A stretch of DNA of 64,000 nt from positions 1-64,000 of the forward strand of contig NZ_LXIE01000005.1 in assembly GCF_001641085.1 (NCBI RefSeq). The letters are read 5' to 3'. The position numbers and the translations under genes were made by a program. The DNA comes from Aequorivita soesokkakensis. GTDB taxonomy: Bacteria > Bacteroidota > Bacteroidia > Flavobacteriales > Flavobacteriaceae. Below, one piece after another: positions 39,578-49,350 of the stretch; the stretch's first letter is position 1, and every line of letters starts with the position of its first letter. A model generated the notes under the pieces. That model saw only the letters and a program-made list of their open reading frames with translations. It had not been told where the DNA came from and made no database searches.

Positions 39578-39653
39578 TGGTCAACCACAACAACACAACA
39601 ACACTCGACTGATATACAGTCGTTGACCATTTTTAACCGTCCGTTTTACGGAC
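39578..39653 (+). promoter_or_regulatory. Structured leader of pnp
   Basis: TGGTCAAC (39578-39585) is complementary to GTTGACCA (39622-39629). Inside this pair CGACTG (39606-39611) and CAGTCG (39617-39622) make a perfect hairpin with a 5-nt loop, sharing one base with the outer arm. A further small hairpin (GTCCG 39639-39643 with CGGAC 39649-39653) ends 15 bp before the ATG. E. coli pnp is controlled through a leader stem cut by RNase III; a similar control here is inference. Confidence 0.5.
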
Positions 39654-39667
39654 AAAATGAAAAACAA

Positions 39668-41911
39668 ATGATACCTAAAGTATTTAGAGAGGTCATAGAC
39701 CTTGGTGATGGACGTGAAATTTCCATCGAAACCGGAAAATTGGCAAAACAGGCCCACGGTTCTGTTGTTGTACAATCCGGAAAATGTATGTTGCTATGTA
39801 CCGTAGTTTCAAACTACAAACAGAGCGATGTTGATTTTCTACCCTTAACAGTAGATTATCGCGAAAAATTTGCCGCTTCGGGTCGTTATCCAGGTGGTTT
39901 CTTCAAAAGAGAAGCTAGACCGAGCGACGGTGAAGTATTAACAATGCGTCTTGTGGATCGTGTATTGCGCCCACTTTTCCCAAAAGATTATCACGCTGAA
40001 ACACAAGTGATGATTCAATTGATGAGCCACGATGATGATGTTATGCCAGATGCAATGGCAGGTTTGGCAGCTTCTGCGGCTATCCAGCTTTCAGATTTTC
40101 CTTTTGAATGTGCTATTTCTGAAGCACGTGTGGGAAGAATCAACGGTCAATTCGTAATAAACCCTTCAAGAGCGCAATTGGAAGAATCAGACATTGATAT
40201 GGTGATTGGTGCTTCTGCAGATTCTGTGATGATGGTTGAAGGCGAAATGAAGGAAATTAGCGAAGAAGAAATGGTTGAAGCCATTAAATTCGCTCACGAA
40301 CACATTAAAAAACAGTGCGAAGCGCAACTTAGATTGGCTGAAGCATTTGGCAAAAAAGAAGTTCGTGAATACGAAGCAGAACGCGAAGATGAAGATTTGA
40401 AGAAAAAGATTCACACAATGGCTTATGATAAAGTGTATGCCGTTGCAAAATCCGCTTCTGCAAAACATGAACGCAGTGCTTCTTTTGATGAAATTAAAGA
40501 AGAAATCAAAGCCACATTTTCTGAAGAAGAATTGGCAGATTTTGGAGATTTAGTTTCAAAATATTATTACAAAGCAGAAAAAGCTGCCGTTCGTGACCTT
40601 ACCTTAAATGAAGGTTTACGTTTGGATGGAAGAAAGACTGACGAGATTCGCCCAATCTGGTGCGAGGTTGATTATTTACCTTCCACACACGGTTCTGCAA
40701 TTTTCACACGTGGGGAAACACAAGCTTTGGCAACCGTAACTTTGGGAACTTCCCGCGAAGCAAACCAAATTGACATGCCATCTTTTGAAGGCGAAGAGAC
40801 TTTCTACCTTCACTACAACTTCCCTCCTTTCTCAACTGGTGAAGCGCGCCCAATTCGCGGTACTTCCCGTAGAGAAGTTGGTCACGGAAACTTGGCGCAA
40901 AGAGCTTTGAAAGGAATGATTCCTGCAGATTGCCCTTACACAGTTCGTGTAGTTTCAGAAGTATTGGAATCTAACGGTTCCTCTTCTATGGCAACGGTTT
41001 GTTCTGGAACAATGGCGTTGATGGATGCTGGGGTTCAATTGAAGAAACCAGTTTCTGGGATTGCAATGGGATTGATTTCTGATGGCGAAACTGGAAAATA
41101 TGCAGTACTTTCCGATATTTTAGGTGATGAAGATCACTTGGGCGATATGGACTTTAAAGTAACCGGAACGGCTGACGGAATCACTGCTTGCCAGATGGAT
41201 ATTAAAGTGAAAGGTCTTTCCTATGAAATTTTGGTAAATGCGCTGAAACAAGCTGCTGCCGGAAGACTCCATATTCTTGAAAAATTGACGGATACCATCG
41301 CAAAACCAAATGCAGATGTGAAACCTCACGCTCCAAAAATGATCACCGTTACTATTCCGAACGAATACATCGGTGCATTGATTGGACCAGGAGGAAAAGT
41401 AATCCAAGAGCTTCAAAAAGCTACCAAAACCACGATTGTTATCAACGAAGATCCTGTTACCGAAGAAGGTATCGTGGAAATTCTTGGAACAAACCAAGAA
41501 GGAATTGATGCGGTATTGGCGAAAATTGATTCGCTTACCTTCAAACCAGAAGTGGGTGGCACATATAAGGTTAAGGTTATAAAAATGCTTGATTTTGGTG
41601 CGGTAGTTGAATATTTGGACGCTCCCGGAAACGAAACCTTGCTTCACGTTAGCGAACTTGCTTGGGAACGTACGGAAAATGTAACCGATGTTGTAAATAT
41701 GGGTGATGTGTTTGATGTGAAATTTATCGGTTTCGATCCTAGAACGAAAAAGGATAAAGTTTCAAGAAAAGCATTGTTGCCAAAACCGGAAGGTTACAAA
41801 GAGCGCCCACCCCGCGATGATAACCGTAGTGGTGGACGTGATAATCGTGGACGCGACAATCGTGGTCGTGACGATCGCAACAGTCGCGATAGAGATAGAA
41901 AGAGAGATTAA
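39668..41911 (+). CDS. pnp: Polynucleotide phosphorylase
   Basis: 747-residue 3'-5' exoribonuclease that uses phosphate. Two RNase PH domains (about 1-220 and 310-545), an alpha-helical linker, a KH domain with the IGPGGKVIQ loop and an S1 domain ([22 protein letters not shown]) are in order, followed by a basic Arg/Asp/Gly tail with RGRDN-type repeats. The ATG at 39668 ([15 protein letters not shown]) was chosen; the upstream frame extension to 39623 falls in the leader hairpins. Confidence 0.97.
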
Positions 41912-41927: not shown

Positions 41928-41958
41928 AAAAAAGCCTTCAGAAATGAGGGCTTTTTTT
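41928..41958 (+). terminator. Terminator after pnp
   Basis: AAAAAAGCCTTCA (41928-41940) and TGAGGGCTTTTTT (41945-41957) pair along their length with one G-U pair and a GAAA loop. The T run overlaps the stop codon of the convergent gene at 41957. Confidence 0.85.
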
Positions 41959-42526
41959 ATTTATACGGACTTCTGCTTTTGCGAGTGAATTGAAGATGAA
42001 GTCCTGTACTGAAAATCACTCTGTCTGGATTTAGATTTACGTGAAACTTCAGACCAATTGAAAAGCCTCGTTTCAACATACCTCTAACCACAATAGTTAG
42101 CGGCACTCCTATAGTGGAATAAAAAACATCCGTATTTTTATAAGATCCATTTGCGCCATTATATATTTCTTCATAGGTACGAATATCCACATAACCCAAA
42201 CCTCCAAAAACATCCGTATACAGCCGTTTGTATATTCTAAATTCCCTACCATAATAAAGATTTAGTTCATAGTAGGCGTCATCAGAACCCGGGAAAAAGG
42301 CAAAGTATTCTGCACCTCCCTCAGCTCCCACGGCAAAAATATTATTCTGGTATGAAAAGCGTAAGTCCCCACTAAATGATGGTCCCAACGAATTTCCGTC
42401 AGTGTATACTGCTGAAGGAGAAAAGCTAAATGAATGATATGCTAGCTTCGTGCCTGACTCATTTTCTTGAGAGTATCCTTTAAAAAAACTAAAAAGTATA
42501 AATAAATAAAGTAGCCTTTTCAACAT
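41957..42526 (-). CDS. Hypothetical outer-membrane beta-barrel protein
   Basis: 189 residues from the ATG at 42526, which gives a signal peptide (MLKRLLYLFILFSFFKGYSQ); an in-frame start 48 bp upstream would add 16 hydrophobic residues before it. The mature part shows alternating strands (LAYHSFSFSPSAVYTDG, FAVGAEGGAEYFAFF) like small outer-membrane barrels. The family is not recognised. It faces away from the Lcl surface gene block. Confidence 0.65.
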   Translation of the reverse strand: MLKRLLYLFILFSFFKGYSQENESGTKLAYHSFSFSPSAVYTDGNSLGPSFSGDLRFSYQNNIFAVGAEGGAEYFAFFPGSDDAYYELNLYYGREFRIYKRLYTDVFGGLGYVDIRTYEEIYNGANGSYKNTDVFYSTIGVPLTIVVRGMLKRGFSIGLKFHVNLNPDRVIFSTGLHLQFTRKSRSPYK

Positions 42527-42645
42527 TAAATATAAATTATAGATATAACCAAAGATGAAAAAAAACCACAACAACGCAACCTTTTAAAAATTTTCAGACT
42601 ATAAGGAAAAGAACAATCAATAATCCTTTTTAAATCTTAAAAACA

Positions 42646-43251
42646 ATGATATCTATTCCAAAACCAATTATTAAATCAATCCTCTTTGGCTTATTAATAA
42701 TAAGCTATAGTTGCAGTAAAGACCCTGAAAATATTGTAGAAATTGAGGAAGCTGACACAAATGATTGTTTTAAAATAGGCGATGAGTTTCAGGGTGGAAT
42801 CGTTTTTTATATAGACGCAACCAATGAGCACGGTTTGATAGCGGCTACGGAAGATCAAAGTAGTGGTGCAATATGGGGATGTCCGGAAACAACTGACCCT
42901 ATAGCAAACCAACGAGATATAGGCTTTGGAAATGCCAACACAAATGCAATTGTAAATAATTGCGCTGAAGTAAATACCTCCGCTAAGATTTGTTCGGAAT
43001 TAATTTTGAATGGGTATGATGATTGGTTTTTACCCACCGTGCATGAGCTAGAATTATTATATCACAATAGAAATTTGGTCGGAGGTTTTTCAAGTACAAA
43101 TTATTCGAGTTCCTCCGAAGGGAAAAATAATGATGGCATTTATAAAGATGTTATTTCAATTGATTTTGGTTTAAATCCTGTTCATGCAGATAGGCAACAA
43201 CCTATAGATAAAACAACCCCCCTAGCTGTTCGCGCAATCCGTAAATTTTAA
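42646..43251 (+). CDS. Lcl/DUF1566-like surface lipoprotein (paralogue 1)
   Basis: 201 residues with lipobox IISYSC (Cys23), a short acidic linker and one domain related to the Legionella collagen-like protein C-terminal/DUF1566 family: start CFKIGDEFQGGIVFYID, core GYDDWFLPTVHELELLYHNR, a Ser-rich SSSSEG turn, and the VRAIRKF end. DUF1566-type domains occur in surface adhesins and fimbrial proteins. It is the first of six or more tightly linked genes. Ligand unknown. Confidence 0.75.
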   Translation: MISIPKPIIKSILFGLLIISYSCSKDPENIVEIEEADTNDCFKIGDEFQGGIVFYIDATNEHGLIAATEDQSSGAIWGCPETTDPIANQRDIGFGNANTNAIVNNCAEVNTSAKICSELILNGYDDWFLPTVHELELLYHNRNLVGGFSSTNYSSSSEGKNNDGIYKDVISIDFGLNPVHADRQQPIDKTTPLAVRAIRKF

Positions 43252-43261
43252 TAAACACATT

Positions 43262-43837
43262 ATGAAGAATAATTTTATAAAAACTTCAATTTTACTTTTA
43301 AGTTTAACTTTTTTCACCAATTCGTCATTTGCCCAGAACGATTGCTTTAAGATTGGTGACGAATATCAAGGGGGCATTATATTCTACATTGACCAAACCG
43401 GAGAACACGGCTTGATTGCCGCACCTTCTGACGAACCCGGATTTGCAATTTATGGCTGTTTAGGAAATACCAGCCCCATAGCAGATAATTCAGAAATAGG
43501 TTCAGGCGATAGTAATACCCAAGGAATCGTTAATTATTGCGAAGAAGAAGGAATTGCCGCTAGACTATGTTCCGATTTATCACTAAATGGCTATTCTGAT
43601 TGGTTTCTCCCCTCAATTAATGAATTGGAAATGTTATATCTAAACAGAAATGCTGTCGGCGGGTTTGACAATACAGAAACTTCTGCATATATAAGTTCTA
43701 CAGAAGCAAGGCCAGCACCCGCTTATTACAGAAGTTGGGCGTATGATTTTGGAAGCCCCCAATTAATTCCGTATACAAGAAAAGTTGTTTCACAAAAGGA
43801 CAATACTTTTAAAGTAAGAGCTATTAGAAAATTTTAA
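43262..43837 (+). CDS. Lcl/DUF1566-like secreted protein (paralogue 2)
   Basis: 191 residues, paralogous to its neighbours at 42646 and 46501, but with an ordinary signal peptide (ends SSFAQ) and no lipobox. Shared landmarks are CFKIGDEYQGGIIFYIDQTGEHGLIAAP, GYSDWFLPSINELEMLYLNR and a final VRAIRKF. Four Cys (28, 66, 93, 103) align with those of paralogue 1 and could form disulfides. Its start is 10 bp after the preceding stop. It is likely periplasmic or exported further. Confidence 0.75.
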   Translation: MKNNFIKTSILLLSLTFFTNSSFAQNDCFKIGDEYQGGIIFYIDQTGEHGLIAAPSDEPGFAIYGCLGNTSPIADNSEIGSGDSNTQGIVNYCEEEGIAARLCSDLSLNGYSDWFLPSINELEMLYLNRNAVGGFDNTETSAYISSTEARPAPAYYRSWAYDFGSPQLIPYTRKVVSQKDNTFKVRAIRKF

Positions 43838-43846
43838 AAATCTATT

Positions 43847-44881
43847 ATGAAAAATCTTCGGTATATTTCAATTATTCTTCTACTTGCAATTTTCAATTCC
43901 TGTGAAGACGAACCTTTGGGAAAAGCAGATCCATCAAAGGTAATTCAAGTAAATTCTGAGCTTTATAATCTCATTGAAAAAGCGGCAGGAAACGATTTTG
44001 AAAACGAATTGACCTGTATTGATTTCAATTATGCTTTTACACTTGTTATTTATGACGAGAATATGGATATTTTCGGCTATCAAGTTATAAATAGCGATAG
44101 TGAATTCAGTGAATTTTTGGGAACCTTGGAAGAAGGAAAATCCATCAGTCTCAGTTATCCAATAACCAGTATTTTAGATAATGGCCAGCCTTACGTGATT
44201 AACAATAATGATGAGCTAAAAGAAGCAATTGATAAATGTTTGGAGGAAGATACAATCACAACCTGCAACAACATACTTACACAGCCCACCTGCATTTGGA
44301 AAATAAGGCATATTAACGGGCCAAATACGGAATATGGTAGCTCCTATTTTGAAGTGAGCTATTATGGCAATGCAGGACTTTACTTTCAAGAGGAGGCCTT
44401 TGGCGGAACTTGGGTTACTTATTTCATAGAAGATGAATTGCATCTAAATATTTTCTTAACAGGAAATCAAGAAATAAGCGATGACTGGAATTTTGATTGG
44501 AAAGTGGTAAGTTTTAACGAAGCGCAAATGGAAATAACCAACGGAACCGATACCTATCAATTAGTAAAGGATTGTTACGAACCTTGCCGAAAATTTCTAT
44601 ATGAGGAATGTGAAATAGAACCGGGTTCCCAAAGAGCAATTTTTGATTTGGAAAGTTATTTTGATTGTTTCTTCCCCTTCACTGGCATTCCAGATCCTTC
44701 AATGGTAACCTGGAGCTATTATGAAACATTTGAAGATATGCTTGCTGGCACAAACCCTATTGTCAATTTAATGTATGAAAACAGCATAAACCCACAAATA
44801 ATTTATATTAGATTTGATGATATTAATACGGGGAATCCGCTGGTTTATGTGCCAATAATTTTAAAAGCAATATCTTGTTAA
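43847..44881 (+). CDS. Hypothetical lipoprotein with adhesin-like C-terminal module
   Basis: 344 residues with lipobox AIFNSC (Cys19). The N-terminal part is unassigned. The C-terminal about 85 residues (ECEIEPGSQRAIFDLESYF ... WSYYETFEDMLAGTNPI ... NPQIIYIRFDD) resemble the repeated modules of large flavobacterial T9SS adhesins, where each begins with such an acidic line and ends near an IYVRV-type strand. This likeness is by eye. It starts 9 bp after the previous stop in the surface operon. Confidence 0.65.
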   Translation: MKNLRYISIILLLAIFNSCEDEPLGKADPSKVIQVNSELYNLIEKAAGNDFENELTCIDFNYAFTLVIYDENMDIFGYQVINSDSEFSEFLGTLEEGKSISLSYPITSILDNGQPYVINNNDELKEAIDKCLEEDTITTCNNILTQPTCIWKIRHINGPNTEYGSSYFEVSYYGNAGLYFQEEAFGGTWVTYFIEDELHLNIFLTGNQEISDDWNFDWKVVSFNEAQMEITNGTDTYQLVKDCYEPCRKFLYEECEIEPGSQRAIFDLESYFDCFFPFTGIPDPSMVTWSYYETFEDMLAGTNPIVNLMYENSINPQIIYIRFDDINTGNPLVYVPIILKAISC

Positions 44882-44901
44882 TACTACTTAAATGTATCAA
44901 T

Positions 44902-46497
44902 ATGAAAGCAAAAACATTTTTTTCCGCACTATTTATAATTGCAAGTGTTATTACAAATGCACAAGTAGCAACTATTAATTGGCAAAATACTATTGGAGGA
45001 AATGCAAGGGAAGGATCTCGTACAATTCAGCAAACAAGTGATGGCGGAATTATAATTGCAGGTGTTTCGGAATCCAACGCATCTGGTGATAAGACAGAGA
45101 ATTCTCAAGGTGAAGATGATTTATGGATTGTAAAATTAAATTCTGTTGGAGCTTTAGAATGGGAAAATACCATTGGTGGCAGTGCAATGGAAATAATTCA
45201 ATCCCACGGAACCGCTATACAACAGACCTCTGACGGAGGCTATATTATAGGATGCAACTCAAATTCCAATATTTCAGGAGATAAAACCGAAAATTCAAAC
45301 GGTGATTTTGACTTCTGGATAATCAAATTAAATTCTTCCGGAGAAATTGAATGGCAAAATACTATTGGCGGCAGCAACGTAGAAATTTTTGGAAGCATTT
45401 TCAATACAAGTGATGGGGGATATATTTTAGGTGGCAGCTCAAACTCCAATATTTCAGGGGATAAAAACGAAAACTCCAAAGGAAGTGAAGATTATTGGGT
45501 GCTTAAACTTAATAGCTCCGGAAACATTGAATGGCAAAAAACCATTGGAGGAAATGCTGCAGATCAATTGGAAGAATTAAAACCAACTGCAGATGGAGGG
45601 TACATTTTGGGAGGTTGGTCTATTTCTGGTATTTCTGGAGATAAATCGGAGGCTCCAATTGGTGCTTGGGACTATTGGATTGTTAAAATTGACAGTTCGG
45701 GAAACATAGAATGGGAAAACACCATTGGCGGTGATGACGTTGAATATTTCAGTCAAATTTTTCAAACCAATGATGGGGGTTATATTCTGTCGGGTGATTC
45801 TCTATCCAATATTTCGGGAGACAAATCTGAAAATTCAAATGGCGAAAATGATTTTTGGATAATAAAACTCAATAATTTAGGAGAAATTGAATGGGAAAAT
45901 ACAATTGGCGGTAGCGATTTAGATTCTCGACCTACAGCATTCCCAACAGAAGAAGGAGGTTATATTGTTGCGGGTAGCTCGTGGTCAAATATATCAGGTG
46001 ATAAAACAGAAAATTCAAAAGGTGAGCAGGACATTTGGATTCTTAAATTAAATGATTTAGGAGAAATTGAATGGCAAAAAACCATTGGTGGAAATAGTTC
46101 GGATTGGGTTTTTGATATTATTCAAAATAATGATGGTAGCTATACAATTGGAGGGAACTCATATTCAAACATTTCAGGTGATAAAACAGAAAACTCCAAA
46201 GGTGCCTCAGATTATTGGATAGTAAATTTTTCAACTATTCTAGGGGTTGAGGAAAATCCAACTATTAACACAATCACTCTATATCCAAACCCAGCAAATA
46301 GTGTTCTTTACATAAAAAACTCAGAGAGAATTATTGATAGCCTAATCATATATTCTCCTTTAGGAAAAATTATAGATGAGTTTACGGTGAATAATAATTC
46401 AGCAGCCGTGGATATTTCAGGATTGGCAACGGGAATTTATTACATCACTTTAAAAAGTGGCAATGATAAAACCATTAAAAAATTTGTAAAAAAATAA
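44902..46497 (+). CDS. T9SS-exported protein with seven 60-residue propeller-like repeats
   Basis: 531 residues from the ATG at 44902. A signal peptide (ends TNAQ) is followed by seven repeats, each beginning W(Q/E)(N/K)TIGG, with Trp at 27, 87, 151, 211, 271, 331 and 391, so the spacing is exactly 60 except for one of 64. Each repeat also has a DGGYI strand, SGDKTENS loop and a D-x-W-I-x-K-L strand. A C-terminal T9SS type A domain follows (ITLYPNPANSVLYIKNS ... KTIKKFVKK). Seven units suggest a seven-bladed beta propeller on the surface. Ligand or substrate unknown. Confidence 0.82.
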   Translation: MKAKTFFSALFIIASVITNAQVATINWQNTIGGNAREGSRTIQQTSDGGIIIAGVSESNASGDKTENSQGEDDLWIVKLNSVGALEWENTIGGSAMEIIQSHGTAIQQTSDGGYIIGCNSNSNISGDKTENSNGDFDFWIIKLNSSGEIEWQNTIGGSNVEIFGSIFNTSDGGYILGGSSNSNISGDKNENSKGSEDYWVLKLNSSGNIEWQKTIGGNAADQLEELKPTADGGYILGGWSISGISGDKSEAPIGAWDYWIVKIDSSGNIEWENTIGGDDVEYFSQIFQTNDGGYILSGDSLSNISGDKSENSNGENDFWIIKLNNLGEIEWENTIGGSDLDSRPTAFPTEEGGYIVAGSSWSNISGDKTENSKGEQDIWILKLNDLGEIEWQKTIGGNSSDWVFDIIQNNDGSYTIGGNSYSNISGDKTENSKGASDYWIVNFSTILGVEENPTINTITLYPNPANSVLYIKNSERIIDSLIIYSPLGKIIDEFTVNNNSAAVDISGLATGIYYITLKSGNDKTIKKFVKK

Positions 46498-46500
46498 ACC

Positions 46501-47145
46501 ATGAAAAAGCATCAACTAAAATTTTTGGGGTTATTATTTATTGTAGCATTATTGTTTAATTCCTGCAACAAAAATGATGACACTCCTGAAGAAAATTTAA
46601 TATTGGAAATAGGCATGGAATACCAAGGAGGGATCATTTTCTATTTGGATAATACTGAAGAACACGGATTAATTGCATACCAATCTGACCTTGCAGATGC
46701 TCCTTGGGGATGTTTCCATCAGCCAAGCCCAATACCTCCAACCGCTCCAATTGCCCAAAATGACGGAATCGGATTTGGCGAACAAAATACGCTTGCAATT
46801 GTTAACTTTTGTGACGAACCAGATAGTGCGGCGCGACTAGCCTATGATTTAGATGCTAATGGATATGATGATTGGTATCTTCCCTCCATTGATGAATTGA
46901 AATTGATTTATGAAAATAGAGATTTAATTGGAGGCTTTCCCGATTTGAACAATGACCCTAATGAAGAATATATTATTTACTCCAGTTCTTCAGAAGGATG
47001 GGGAACAAATGATGGTGACGGAGGTTTTTTATATTTAAATTATCAAGTGTATGAATTTTCCGTGACTACTATCTTTCCAGATGAAAGAAGACTTTTTACT
47101 GGAAAAGACAACGCAATGAAAGTAAGACCTATCAGATCCTTTTAA
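46501..47145 (+). CDS. Lcl/DUF1566-like surface lipoprotein (paralogue 3)
   Basis: 214 residues with lipobox LLFNSC (Cys22) and acidic linker. The domain matches the two copies upstream: MEYQGGIIFYLDNTEEHGLIAY, GYDDWYLPSIDELKLIYENR, SSSSEGWG and an ending with VRPIRSF. It lies 3 bp after the propeller gene and 18 bp before the ECF sigma gene, and so closes the surface block. The three paralogues suggest past duplication with later divergence in their membrane anchoring. Confidence 0.75.
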   Translation: MKKHQLKFLGLLFIVALLFNSCNKNDDTPEENLILEIGMEYQGGIIFYLDNTEEHGLIAYQSDLADAPWGCFHQPSPIPPTAPIAQNDGIGFGEQNTLAIVNFCDEPDSAARLAYDLDANGYDDWYLPSIDELKLIYENRDLIGGFPDLNNDPNEEYIIYSSSSEGWGTNDGDGGFLYLNYQVYEFSVTTIFPDERRLFTGKDNAMKVRPIRSF

Positions 47146-47163
47146 AATTTTAGGAGAATTTAT

Positions 47164-47709
47164 TTGAAAATAGAAGAATTAATAAAACAATGCATAAAAA
47201 ATGACCGGACAGCACAGAACGAGCTGTTCCGGCAATACAAAGACACGCTTTATTTTACCTCTTTAAAATACTGCAGAAACGAAGCCGATGCCGAAGATAA
47301 TCTGCACGATGCATTTATAACCATTTTTCAAAAAATAAAAACATATAGAAACAAAGGCTCTTTTGAGGGATGGATGAAGCGAATAACCATTTATAAAGCA
47401 ATTGATAAATACAAAGCCAACAAACCGTTAAGTATTGAATTAAAAAATGATATTCTGGAGGAAAACGTTACGATTGAGGAAGAACAAAATCTTTCGCTAG
47501 ACCAACTTTTAAAACTCATCCAAGAGCTGCCAGACCAATACAGGCTGGTTTTTAACCTGTATCAACTTGATGGATTTTCACACAAAGAAATTGCCGTGCT
47601 TTTAACTATTTCAGAAGGCACCTCAAAATCTAATTACCACCGCGCAAAATTGATATTGCGCGATAAAATTGAAGCATTTAAAAAACCCCAACACCTAAAA
47701 ACAAACTAA
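47164..47709 (+). CDS. ECF-type RNA polymerase sigma factor
   Basis: 181 residues from TTG. Sigma region 2 (about 22-90: NELFRQYKDTLYFTSLKYCRNEADAEDNLHDAFITIFQKI) binds core and the -10 element; region 4 (about 118-168: LPDQYRLVFNLYQLDGFSHKEIAVLLTISEGTSKSNYHRAK) has the helix-turn-helix. It lies 18 bp after an Lcl-type gene and 1 bp before a membrane protein gene, so it may both belong to and control the surface operon. That link is inference. Confidence 0.92.
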   Translation: MKIEELIKQCIKNDRTAQNELFRQYKDTLYFTSLKYCRNEADAEDNLHDAFITIFQKIKTYRNKGSFEGWMKRITIYKAIDKYKANKPLSIELKNDILEENVTIEEEQNLSLDQLLKLIQELPDQYRLVFNLYQLDGFSHKEIAVLLTISEGTSKSNYHRAKLILRDKIEAFKKPQHLKTN

Positions 47710-47710
47710 A

Positions 47711-48358
47711 ATGGGACAAAAGAAAGACATAGGGCAGCTTTTTGAAAACAAGCTGAACCACGCAAAAAAGATTCCCAACACAAGTCTTTGGGAGAAAATA
47801 AACGCTTCTTTGGATGAAGAAAAACGCAGAAAAAAAAGACTTTTTTTATATTGGCTTGTGAGCGGTGGAATTTCTGTTTTACTGGGGCTGCTTCTATTGT
47901 TTGGCAATGAAATGTTTTTTAGTTCCAGTTTGTCCAAACATCAAAATACTGTTCCTTTAAACGAACAGTCCAACACAATCTCTGAAAATGAAAACGGCGA
48001 AAATACTGTAGAAATTTCAACAGAAAATTCGCAAACTATTAAAAATACAGGTGAAGAAAAACTTACGAGAATAATTCTTCCCGAAGAGAATAGAGAATCA
48101 AGTGAGGCAGGAAATCCTTTAGATAAAAATGCTTCAGCGCAATCTGTAGCTGCTGAAAACAAATCAATAAAAAATAAATCTAAGCATAAAAGCACGGATG
48201 AAAATTTTACTGTTACCAAAAATTACTATTACTATAATAGCAAGGATGGAAAGCAGATTGTAACAAAAAACAAAGACGAAATTGATAGTTTAATTTTAGA
48301 ACACTACAAATCTTTAGATTCAACTGTTTCTAAAAAAGATGAAGGTCCTCTAGATTAA
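47711..48358 (+). CDS. Single-pass membrane protein, possible anti-sigma partner
   Basis: 215 residues: a charged cytoplasmic part (about 1-43), one transmembrane helix (44-64) and a long polar, Ser/Glu/Lys-rich outer part without Cys. The gene starts 1 bp after the ECF sigma gene, the usual place for an anti-sigma factor. The layout fits, and the N-terminal segment (FENKLNHAKKIPNTSLWEKI) resembles proteins encoded beside sigma genes in flavobacteria. No zinc-type anti-sigma motif (H-x3-C-x2-C) is present, so the role is a proposal. Confidence 0.7.
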   Translation: MGQKKDIGQLFENKLNHAKKIPNTSLWEKINASLDEEKRRKKRLFLYWLVSGGISVLLGLLLLFGNEMFFSSSLSKHQNTVPLNEQSNTISENENGENTVEISTENSQTIKNTGEEKLTRIILPEENRESSEAGNPLDKNASAQSVAAENKSIKNKSKHKSTDENFTVTKNYYYYNSKDGKQIVTKNKDEIDSLILEHYKSLDSTVSKKDEGPLD

Positions 48359-48486: not shown

Positions 48487-49350
48487 ATGAGACAACTTAA
48501 AATTACCAAGCAGGTAACCAACAGGGAAACTGCTTCATTAGACAAGTACCTTCAAGAAATTGGAAAAGTTGACTTAATCACCGCAGACGAAGAAGTAGAA
48601 TTGGCACAACGCATAAAAGCGGGTGACCAGCGCGCTTTGGAAAAATTGACCAAAGCTAACCTTCGTTTCGTCGTTTCGGTGGCAAAGCAATATCAAAACC
48701 AAGGGCTTACCCTTCCCGATCTTATTAATGAAGGAAACCTTGGCCTTATTAAAGCTGCACAACGTTTTGATGAAACGCGTGGTTTTAAATTTATTTCGTA
48801 TGCTGTTTGGTGGATCCGTCAGTCTATTCTTCAAGCTTTGGCTGAGCAATCGCGTATTGTACGACTTCCTTTAAATAAAATTGGAAGCATCAACAAAATC
48901 AACAAAATGTACGCTTATTTGGAACAAGCCAATGAGCGCCCGCCTTCCGCTGAAGAAATTGCAAAAGAGCTGGATATGACCATCAACGACGTAAAAGAGT
49001 CCATGAAAAACTCTGGCCGTCACGTATCGATGGATGCTCCGCTTGTTGAAGGCGAAGACAGTAATCTTTATGACGTTTTGCGAAGCGGCGAAAGCCCAAA
49101 CCCAGATCGCGCTTTGTTGCACGAATCGCTTAGAACAGAAATTGAGCGTGCTTTGGAAACATTAACGCCACGTGAAGCTGACGTTATTCGTTTGTACTTC
49201 GGCTTGGGTGACCAGCATCCAATGACTTTGGAAGAAATTGGCGAAACCTTTGATCTTACCCGCGAACGTGTTCGTCAGATTAAAGAGAAGGCAATTAGAA
49301 GATTGAAACACACTTCAAGAAGTAAAATATTAATGACCTATTTGGGATAA
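48487..49350 (+). CDS. rpoD: Primary sigma factor of Bacteroidota type
   Basis: 287 residues, without region 1.1, the usual size for the Bacteroidota housekeeping sigma factor. Region 1.2 ([25 protein letters not shown]), region 2 ([56 protein letters not shown]), region 3 and region 4 with the helix-turn-helix ([30 protein letters not shown]) follow in order. It is the factor expected to read the TAnnTTTG promoters of this window. Two terminators lie downstream. Confidence 0.95.

Follow-up and report, generated by a model that had tools for sequence, protein, structure and literature searches.

Genes and features between pnp and rpoD

Seven co-directional open reading frames (ORFs) occupy positions 42646-48358 on the plus strand of the window, the 64,000-nucleotide stretch of the Aequorivita soesokkakensis genome analyzed here, between pnp (39623-41911) and the primary sigma factor gene rpoD (48487-49350). 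The ORF coordinates agreed with the tight spacing of 1-20 bp given in a preliminary description of this DNA, the intergenic gaps being 10, 9, 20, 3, 18 and 1 bp from gene 1 to gene 7. Its list of products also stood up to Pfam and NCBIfam searches and to transmembrane (TM) helix prediction: three Lcl/DUF1566-type proteins, a lipoprotein (gene 3, hereafter LP3), a repeat protein exported by the type IX secretion system (T9SS), an extracytoplasmic function (ECF) sigma factor and a membrane protein, the predicted anti-sigma factor. The features of the locus are listed below.

42575..42603, plus strand: predicted ECF-type promoter, CGCAACC (-35) TTTTAAAAATTTTC AGACTATA (-10), 42 nt 5' of the first ATG
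42646..43251, plus strand: gene 1, Lcl/DUF1566-type lipoprotein 1, variable cargo (PF07603, E = 1.3e-5; NF046116, E = 4.5e-15; lipobox ..ISYSC)
43262..43837, plus strand: gene 2, Lcl/DUF1566-type secreted protein 2, variable cargo (PF07603 above the gathering score; signal peptide ending ..SSFAQ; no lipobox)
43847..44881, plus strand: gene 3 (LP3), core lipoprotein, in every intact Aequorivita module
44902..46497, plus strand: gene 4, T9SS-exported repeat protein, propeller-like, variable cargo (PF18962, E = 1.9e-13; NF047494, E = 5e-21); the start is 44902 with ATG and 44875 if TTG is used
46501..47145, plus strand: gene 5, Lcl/DUF1566-type lipoprotein 3, recurrent cargo (Lcl_C match)
47164..47709, plus strand: gene 6, ECF sigma factor (TTG start; PF04542, Sigma70_r2, and PF08281, Sigma70_r4_2, above their cut-offs)
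47711..48358, plus strand: gene 7, predicted anti-sigma factor of 215 aa with one predicted TM helix, assigned by homology of its N-terminus and by position
48224..48316, plus strand: beta-beta-alpha mini-domain of the predicted anti-sigma factor (motif YYYYNSxDGKQIVTxxKxEIDSLI, in 24 aligned barrel-less anti-sigmas)

Matches to Lcl_C (PF07603) were found in genes 1, 2 and 5. The Pfam cut-off was passed by gene 2 alone, yet genes 1 and 5 are 42-52% identical to gene 2 (52% for gene 1). The Lcl adhesin model NF046116 matched only over its DUF1566-type part and far below the NCBIfam cut-off, and its collagen-like repeats were not found. Gene 4 combines a Por_Secre_tail (PF18962), the mark of T9SS type A export, with a match to the LipL53/SBBP propeller-like repeat model (NF047494). 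Genes 3 and 7 returned no family match in the Pfam and NCBIfam searches.

A sequence search of LP3 against solved structures gave no significant match. Its AlphaFold 2 model has moderate confidence (predicted local distance difference test score, pLDDT, 75.5) and contains three domains: an alpha/beta domain (residues 35-145), a lipocalin-like domain (149-243) with weak likeness to 5byp, 4qrl and 4zgf in Foldseek, and an adhesin-repeat-like domain (251-343). Residues 244-335 also match within ORFs of 1600-2400 aa. Elsewhere in the same genome (L092, G000:C12:176000-194000), two LP3-like lipoproteins of 587 and 500 aa stand divergent from a set of ECF sigma, FecR and TonB-receptor genes, which suggests links between LP3-type proteins and more than one sigma system.

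Conservation of the core and of its promoter

The sigma factor has an orthologue in 21 of 28 Aequorivita genomes, one copy each and always at the pnp-rpoD locus. In all 21, LP3 lies upstream and the predicted anti-sigma gene downstream of the sigma gene, between pnp (or proABC) and rpoD. One of the seven sigma-less genomes, G007, reaches only 69% completeness, leaving six readable loci. In G008, G009, G011, G014 and G025 the locus showed neither LP3 nor the sigma gene nor a complete anti-sigma gene, although G025 retains remnants of the promoter and of the C-terminal end of the anti-sigma; the locus of G020 carries a truncated LP3 and a broken anti-sigma gene with no sigma gene. This joint presence and joint absence or decay indicates that LP3, sigma and anti-sigma are retained or lost as a set. 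The proABC genes, which lie between pnp and LP3 in several relatives, were considered and set aside as unrelated to the module because they are also found where it is absent.

Among named genomes, an LP3 of 61-83% identity comes from Aequorivita or from a metagenome-assembled genome assigned only to its family. Outside the genus it was found at 32-47% identity beside the sigma gene in many Flavobacteriaceae genera, mostly between pnp and rpoD. Of 60 distinct non-Aequorivita LP3 genes, 38 have this sigma gene within 4.5 kb, 8 (all from Kordia) have a different ECF sigma gene and 14 have none. Since the loci are related by descent, the tests of sigma and promoter are not fully independent, and the counts given here measure conservation rather than separate events.

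The remaining genes behave differently. Lcl, LP3, LP3-Lcl fusions, T9SS propellers and other lipoproteins all occur as cargo at this locus across relatives, and Lcl and T9SS genes have been gained or lost even between Aequorivita species; genes 1 and 2 were seen in the window's genome only. The closest orthologues of gene 5 outside the genus (E<1e-50) were found in 4 of the 199 family genomes searched, in each case within 1.3 kb of the sigma orthologue. T9SS repeat proteins occupy the equivalent locus in four cases (G163, G122, L129, L131), and the N-terminal part of LP3 is fused to a DUF1566-type domain, partly below the Pfam cut-off, in Flavobacterium species and in G126. The same types of cargo thus stand beside the sigma gene in separate genera, which argues for a recurrent rather than a random set. 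By these sequence comparisons, the conserved core is LP3, sigma and predicted anti-sigma, accompanied by Lcl and T9SS genes as passengers that vary. A lack of conserved linkage in relatives, named beforehand as one ground for rejection, was not borne out.

Alignment of the regions 5' of the first operon gene at 22 Aequorivita loci (21 intact and 1 decayed) yielded the consensus CGCAACYTTT-N11-AGACTATAGGG with fixed spacing. The window's copy, at 42575-42603, is a strongly conserved ECF-type promoter and replaces the earlier statement that no promoter consensus lies upstream. A sigma-70 promoter scan, to which such an ECF site is invisible, found sites no more common than in shuffled sequence. 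We searched genomes for the pattern with its reversed form as control. CGCAACYTTT-N11-AGACTATA at 42575-42603 was the sole exact match in the window's 3.19-Mb genome, where the other matches had 2-3 mismatches and were about as frequent as those of the control. A site with at most one mismatch was present 5' of the first operon gene in 21/21 intact modules; the reversed pattern gave none in 28 genomes.

In other genera, the best site of the whole locus usually fell ~10-35 nt 5' of the first operon gene, and most sigma-bearing loci outscored 25 shuffled loci (shuffled maximum 10.9). As a held-out test, a promoter model built on Aequorivita was scored upstream of LP3 in these genera with a threshold of ≥11. 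It was passed by 26/38 LP3 genes with this sigma, 0/8 from Kordia, 5/14 without a nearby sigma and 3/490 other genes; several of the 12 failures with a nearby sigma have their best site before another first operon gene. In Kordia, where LP3 adjoins a different ECF sigma (~33% identical), the promoter instead reads GGGAACCTTTT..CGTCTATA in 8/8 cases, with small changes in some. This difference supports pairing of sigma and promoter, and from it we infer that each sigma factor reads the promoter of its own operon, the co-change in Kordia being the strongest indirect evidence. Loci of a paralogous, family-wide sigma/barrel pair lacked the promoter site.

No sigma-A-type -33/-7 pair was found inside the operon, and the last two gaps are 18 and 1 bp, so that a separate promoter for the sigma pair, proposed beforehand as grounds for rejecting a single unit, did not emerge. 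An autoregulated operon is expected to have an ECF-type promoter that is conserved with its sigma gene and lost or changed without it. This pattern was found, with exceptions: 5 of the 14 sigma-less LP3 genes keep the site, as does the module-less G011. Conserved linkage and conserved promoter together argue, as had been suggested, that the surface proteins and the sigma pair form one unit that is very probably self-controlled. The site left in G011 (L052, 2586-2614, minus strand) is an exact copy that the lost module left behind 5' of rpoD, and it could affect rpoD provided that another sigma reads it.

The predicted regulon in the window's own genome is the operon alone. Among off-operon sites with at most one mismatch, five precede members of a ~420-aa lipoprotein family in four Aequorivita genomes, and unlinked copies also precede an Lcl lipoprotein gene in G145 and another lipoprotein gene in G062. 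The remaining sites were intragenic or lay at a distance from gene starts, and were about as numerous as those of the reversed control. No chaperone, lipopolysaccharide (LPS) or vesicle gene appeared in this motif-based regulon. The ~420-aa lipoprotein loci (L206, L209, L232, L234) have a glyA-like neighbor in 3/4 cases.

The predicted anti-sigma factor and how the module may work

Gene 7 is predicted to encode cytosolic helices (residues 1-43), a TM helix (~44-65), a disordered tether (77-159) and the mini-domain (172-202). In the AlphaFold 2 model, helices span residues 7-18 and 24-65, the tether has pLDDT <50, and the mini-domain, a beta-hairpin plus a helix (pLDDT ~90), follows a disordered tether of some 80 residues. 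The N-terminus aligns with barrel-bearing proteins that stand beside the same sigma gene at the same locus and resemble Dma, the anti-sigma partner of the ECF21 sigma factor Das in Bacteroides (PMC13088901). The long forms of the protein measure ~380-550 aa in other genera and 472 aa in one genome within the genus (G006), and end in a barrel where tested; locus orthologues in G006, G127 and others match the barrel families PF13505/PF13568. The short forms (~180-240 aa, including the window's) have the N-terminus and TM helix in common with the long forms and end in the mini-domain. Among 120 family genomes, the mini-domain motif was restricted to proteins of this locus, and G127 has a long form carrying both the motif and a barrel. 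Gene 7 has the single TM helix and long disordered tether of Dma and lacks its outer-membrane barrel, for which reason it is not filed as Dma; its working is Dma-like in the explanation we favor.

In G167 (L112, G167:C1:646000-662000), rpoD is flanked by a barrel-bearing pair on one side and a barrel-less pair on the other. The window's genome also carries a paralogous ECF sigma (52% identical) with a 527-aa barrel-bearing anti-sigma (L089, G000:C23:205923-207027), and of the 165/199 family genomes with a sigma match at E≤1e-40, most have this second kind. Directly 5' of the operon lies a divergent gene for a small outer-membrane beta-barrel-like protein (41957-42529, minus strand), homologues of which (1-3 copies) separate pnp from LP3 in some relatives and are missing in others. 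We considered it as the missing barrel of the anti-sigma factor. This was not supported, as the gene co-occurs with a barrel-bearing anti-sigma in G006 and is absent at many barrel-less loci.

We believe the locus is, with high probability, an ECF sigma/anti-sigma module that regulates its own expression together with that of a few exchangeable outer-membrane and surface proteins. At rest, the 215-aa membrane protein would hold the sigma factor by its cytosolic N-terminus, as its position and Dma-like homology suggest. The disordered periplasmic tether would extend the mini-domain in the direction of the outer envelope, probably to dock on a partner there, and an envelope or surface event would then release the sigma factor. 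Freed sigma may transcribe its own operon from 42575-42603, a promoter predicted by conservation whose recognition by this sigma is suggested by their co-occurrence. Besides the cargo (LP3, Lcl proteins, T9SS protein), the cell would make more sigma and anti-sigma, a positive feedback that carries its own brake. The surface genes would serve as swappable cargo on a stable chassis of promoter, sigma and anti-sigma. In such a scheme the mini-domain would sense the state of the envelope, and the cargo proteins would act in recognition or attachment. More tentatively, and with somewhat less than even confidence, we propose a new branch of Dma-like anti-sigmas that have exchanged the barrel for a mini-domain able to read, in trans, the state of the outer membrane or of a surface protein, and in which one self-amplifying promoter and a cargo swapped between species make up a regulated surface-antigen slot.

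Several observations weigh against the module as we describe it. The anti-sigma role of gene 7 is drawn from homology and position. LP3 stands without a nearby sigma in 14/60 non-Aequorivita cases, of which 5/14 still score for the promoter, so that a linked sigma is no strict requirement for LP3. Anti-sigmas with and without a barrel are interspersed on the sigma tree, which calls for at least 3 changes between the forms and has many weak branches, and one barrel-less genome (G062) carries an operon without cargo.

The same genes could belong to a Das/Dma-type envelope-stress response, in which damage to the outer membrane, or an attack on it, triggers the sigma factor and the surface proteins serve for protection rather than for recognition. 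We regard this as plausible and, on balance, doubtful. The related Bacteroides pairs (Dma1, Dma2) change vesiculation (PMC13088901); in Phocaeicola vulgatus, a similar pair of sigma and barrel-bearing anti-sigma responds to an antibacterial toxin, and NigD lipoproteins are among the genes that toxin treatment strongly induces (PMC9308784); and the barrel layout recurs in several relatives of the window's pair. Against this, the motif-based regulon is nearly a single surface-protein operon, devoid of chaperone, LPS and vesicle genes, and the separate family-wide barrel-bearing paralogue pair (G000:C23) fits a general stress role better.

That the Lcl and T9SS genes are chance insertions that hitch-hike on the sigma operon's promoter, with no functional link, would account for a cargo that varies even between Aequorivita species and for the restriction of genes 1 and 2 to one genome. 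The recurrence of Lcl orthologues, LP3-Lcl fusions and T9SS proteins (four loci) beside this sigma in separate genera makes chance improbable, as does the unlinked Lcl gene that carries the same promoter. A nutrient-uptake system of the FecI/FecR type, suggested by an ECF sigma beside a one-helix membrane protein and outer-membrane proteins in a phylum rich in such pairs, has next to nothing left in its favor and is refuted by domain content: the family search found no FecR domain in gene 7, the locus holds no linked TonB-dependent receptor, and a true FecI/FecR/TonB-receptor set lies elsewhere (C12), beside LP3-like proteins.

The autoregulated surface module would take Das/Dma-type control by sigma and anti-sigma beyond gut Bacteroides, to environmental Flavobacteriaceae. 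It comes with a specific promoter sequence, a nearly single-operon predicted regulon and a promoter that changes where LP3 adjoins another sigma. The same locus with and without a barrel, even within one genus (G006 compared to its relatives), offers a natural experiment on anti-sigma signaling, and with its small size and single predicted promoter the operon lends itself to testing.

Comparison with known systems

The view that no described system has this composition was too strong, as the sigma/anti-sigma half resembles Das/Dma. In the literature searched, a search of limited coverage, we found no description of the flavobacterial locus, its promoter or the barrel-less anti-sigma. As in Das/Dma of Bacteroides thetaiotaomicron (ECF21), an ECF sigma gene stands beside that of a membrane protein with a single TM helix and a long disordered tether, whose N-terminal part binds the sigma in Dma and is a putative sigma-binding part in gene 7; generic ECF models match gene 6, which adjoins a Dma-like gene, and the likeness to the Bacteroides pairs is one of described layout. 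In Bacteroides, removal of the anti-sigma induces genes of and next to the operon, the neighbors being among the most induced (PMC13088901). Unlike Dma1 and Dma2, the window's protein has the conserved beta-beta-alpha mini-domain in place of a C-terminal beta-barrel. The cargo also differs (LP3, Lcl and T9SS proteins here, other neighbors in Bacteroides, such as the DUF4858 and DUF4943 proteins of Dma2), as do the fixed location between pnp and rpoD and the promoter CGCAACYTTT-N11-AGACTATA.

In the P. vulgatus pair M0N98_03761/03760 and in EcfO of B. fragilis, a sigma gene is followed by that of a large anti-sigma reaching an outer-membrane barrel. The P. vulgatus pair affects toxin tolerance, and the activating toxin exposure also induces lipoproteins (PMC9308784). 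Both systems were studied for toxin/envelope or oxidative stress, and the text consulted describes no surface-cargo operon for them.

Legionella Lcl has a C-terminal DUF1566 fold, as do the window's Lcl proteins, and in Legionella this fold is C-type-lectin-like and binds glycans (PMC11162425). The proteins described here are, unlike Legionella Lcl, small (~200 aa), without a collagen-like region and from Bacteroidota. The SM6 ECF promoters of Flavobacterium psychrophilum (T9SS regulon) likewise involve an ECF sigma/anti-sigma pair, from the same bacterial family, with links to surface and secretion genes (PMC9723704). The -10 region of SM6 contains a CGT box and SM6 controls the T9SS machinery, whereas the promoter described here has AGACTATA and lies before surface cargo.

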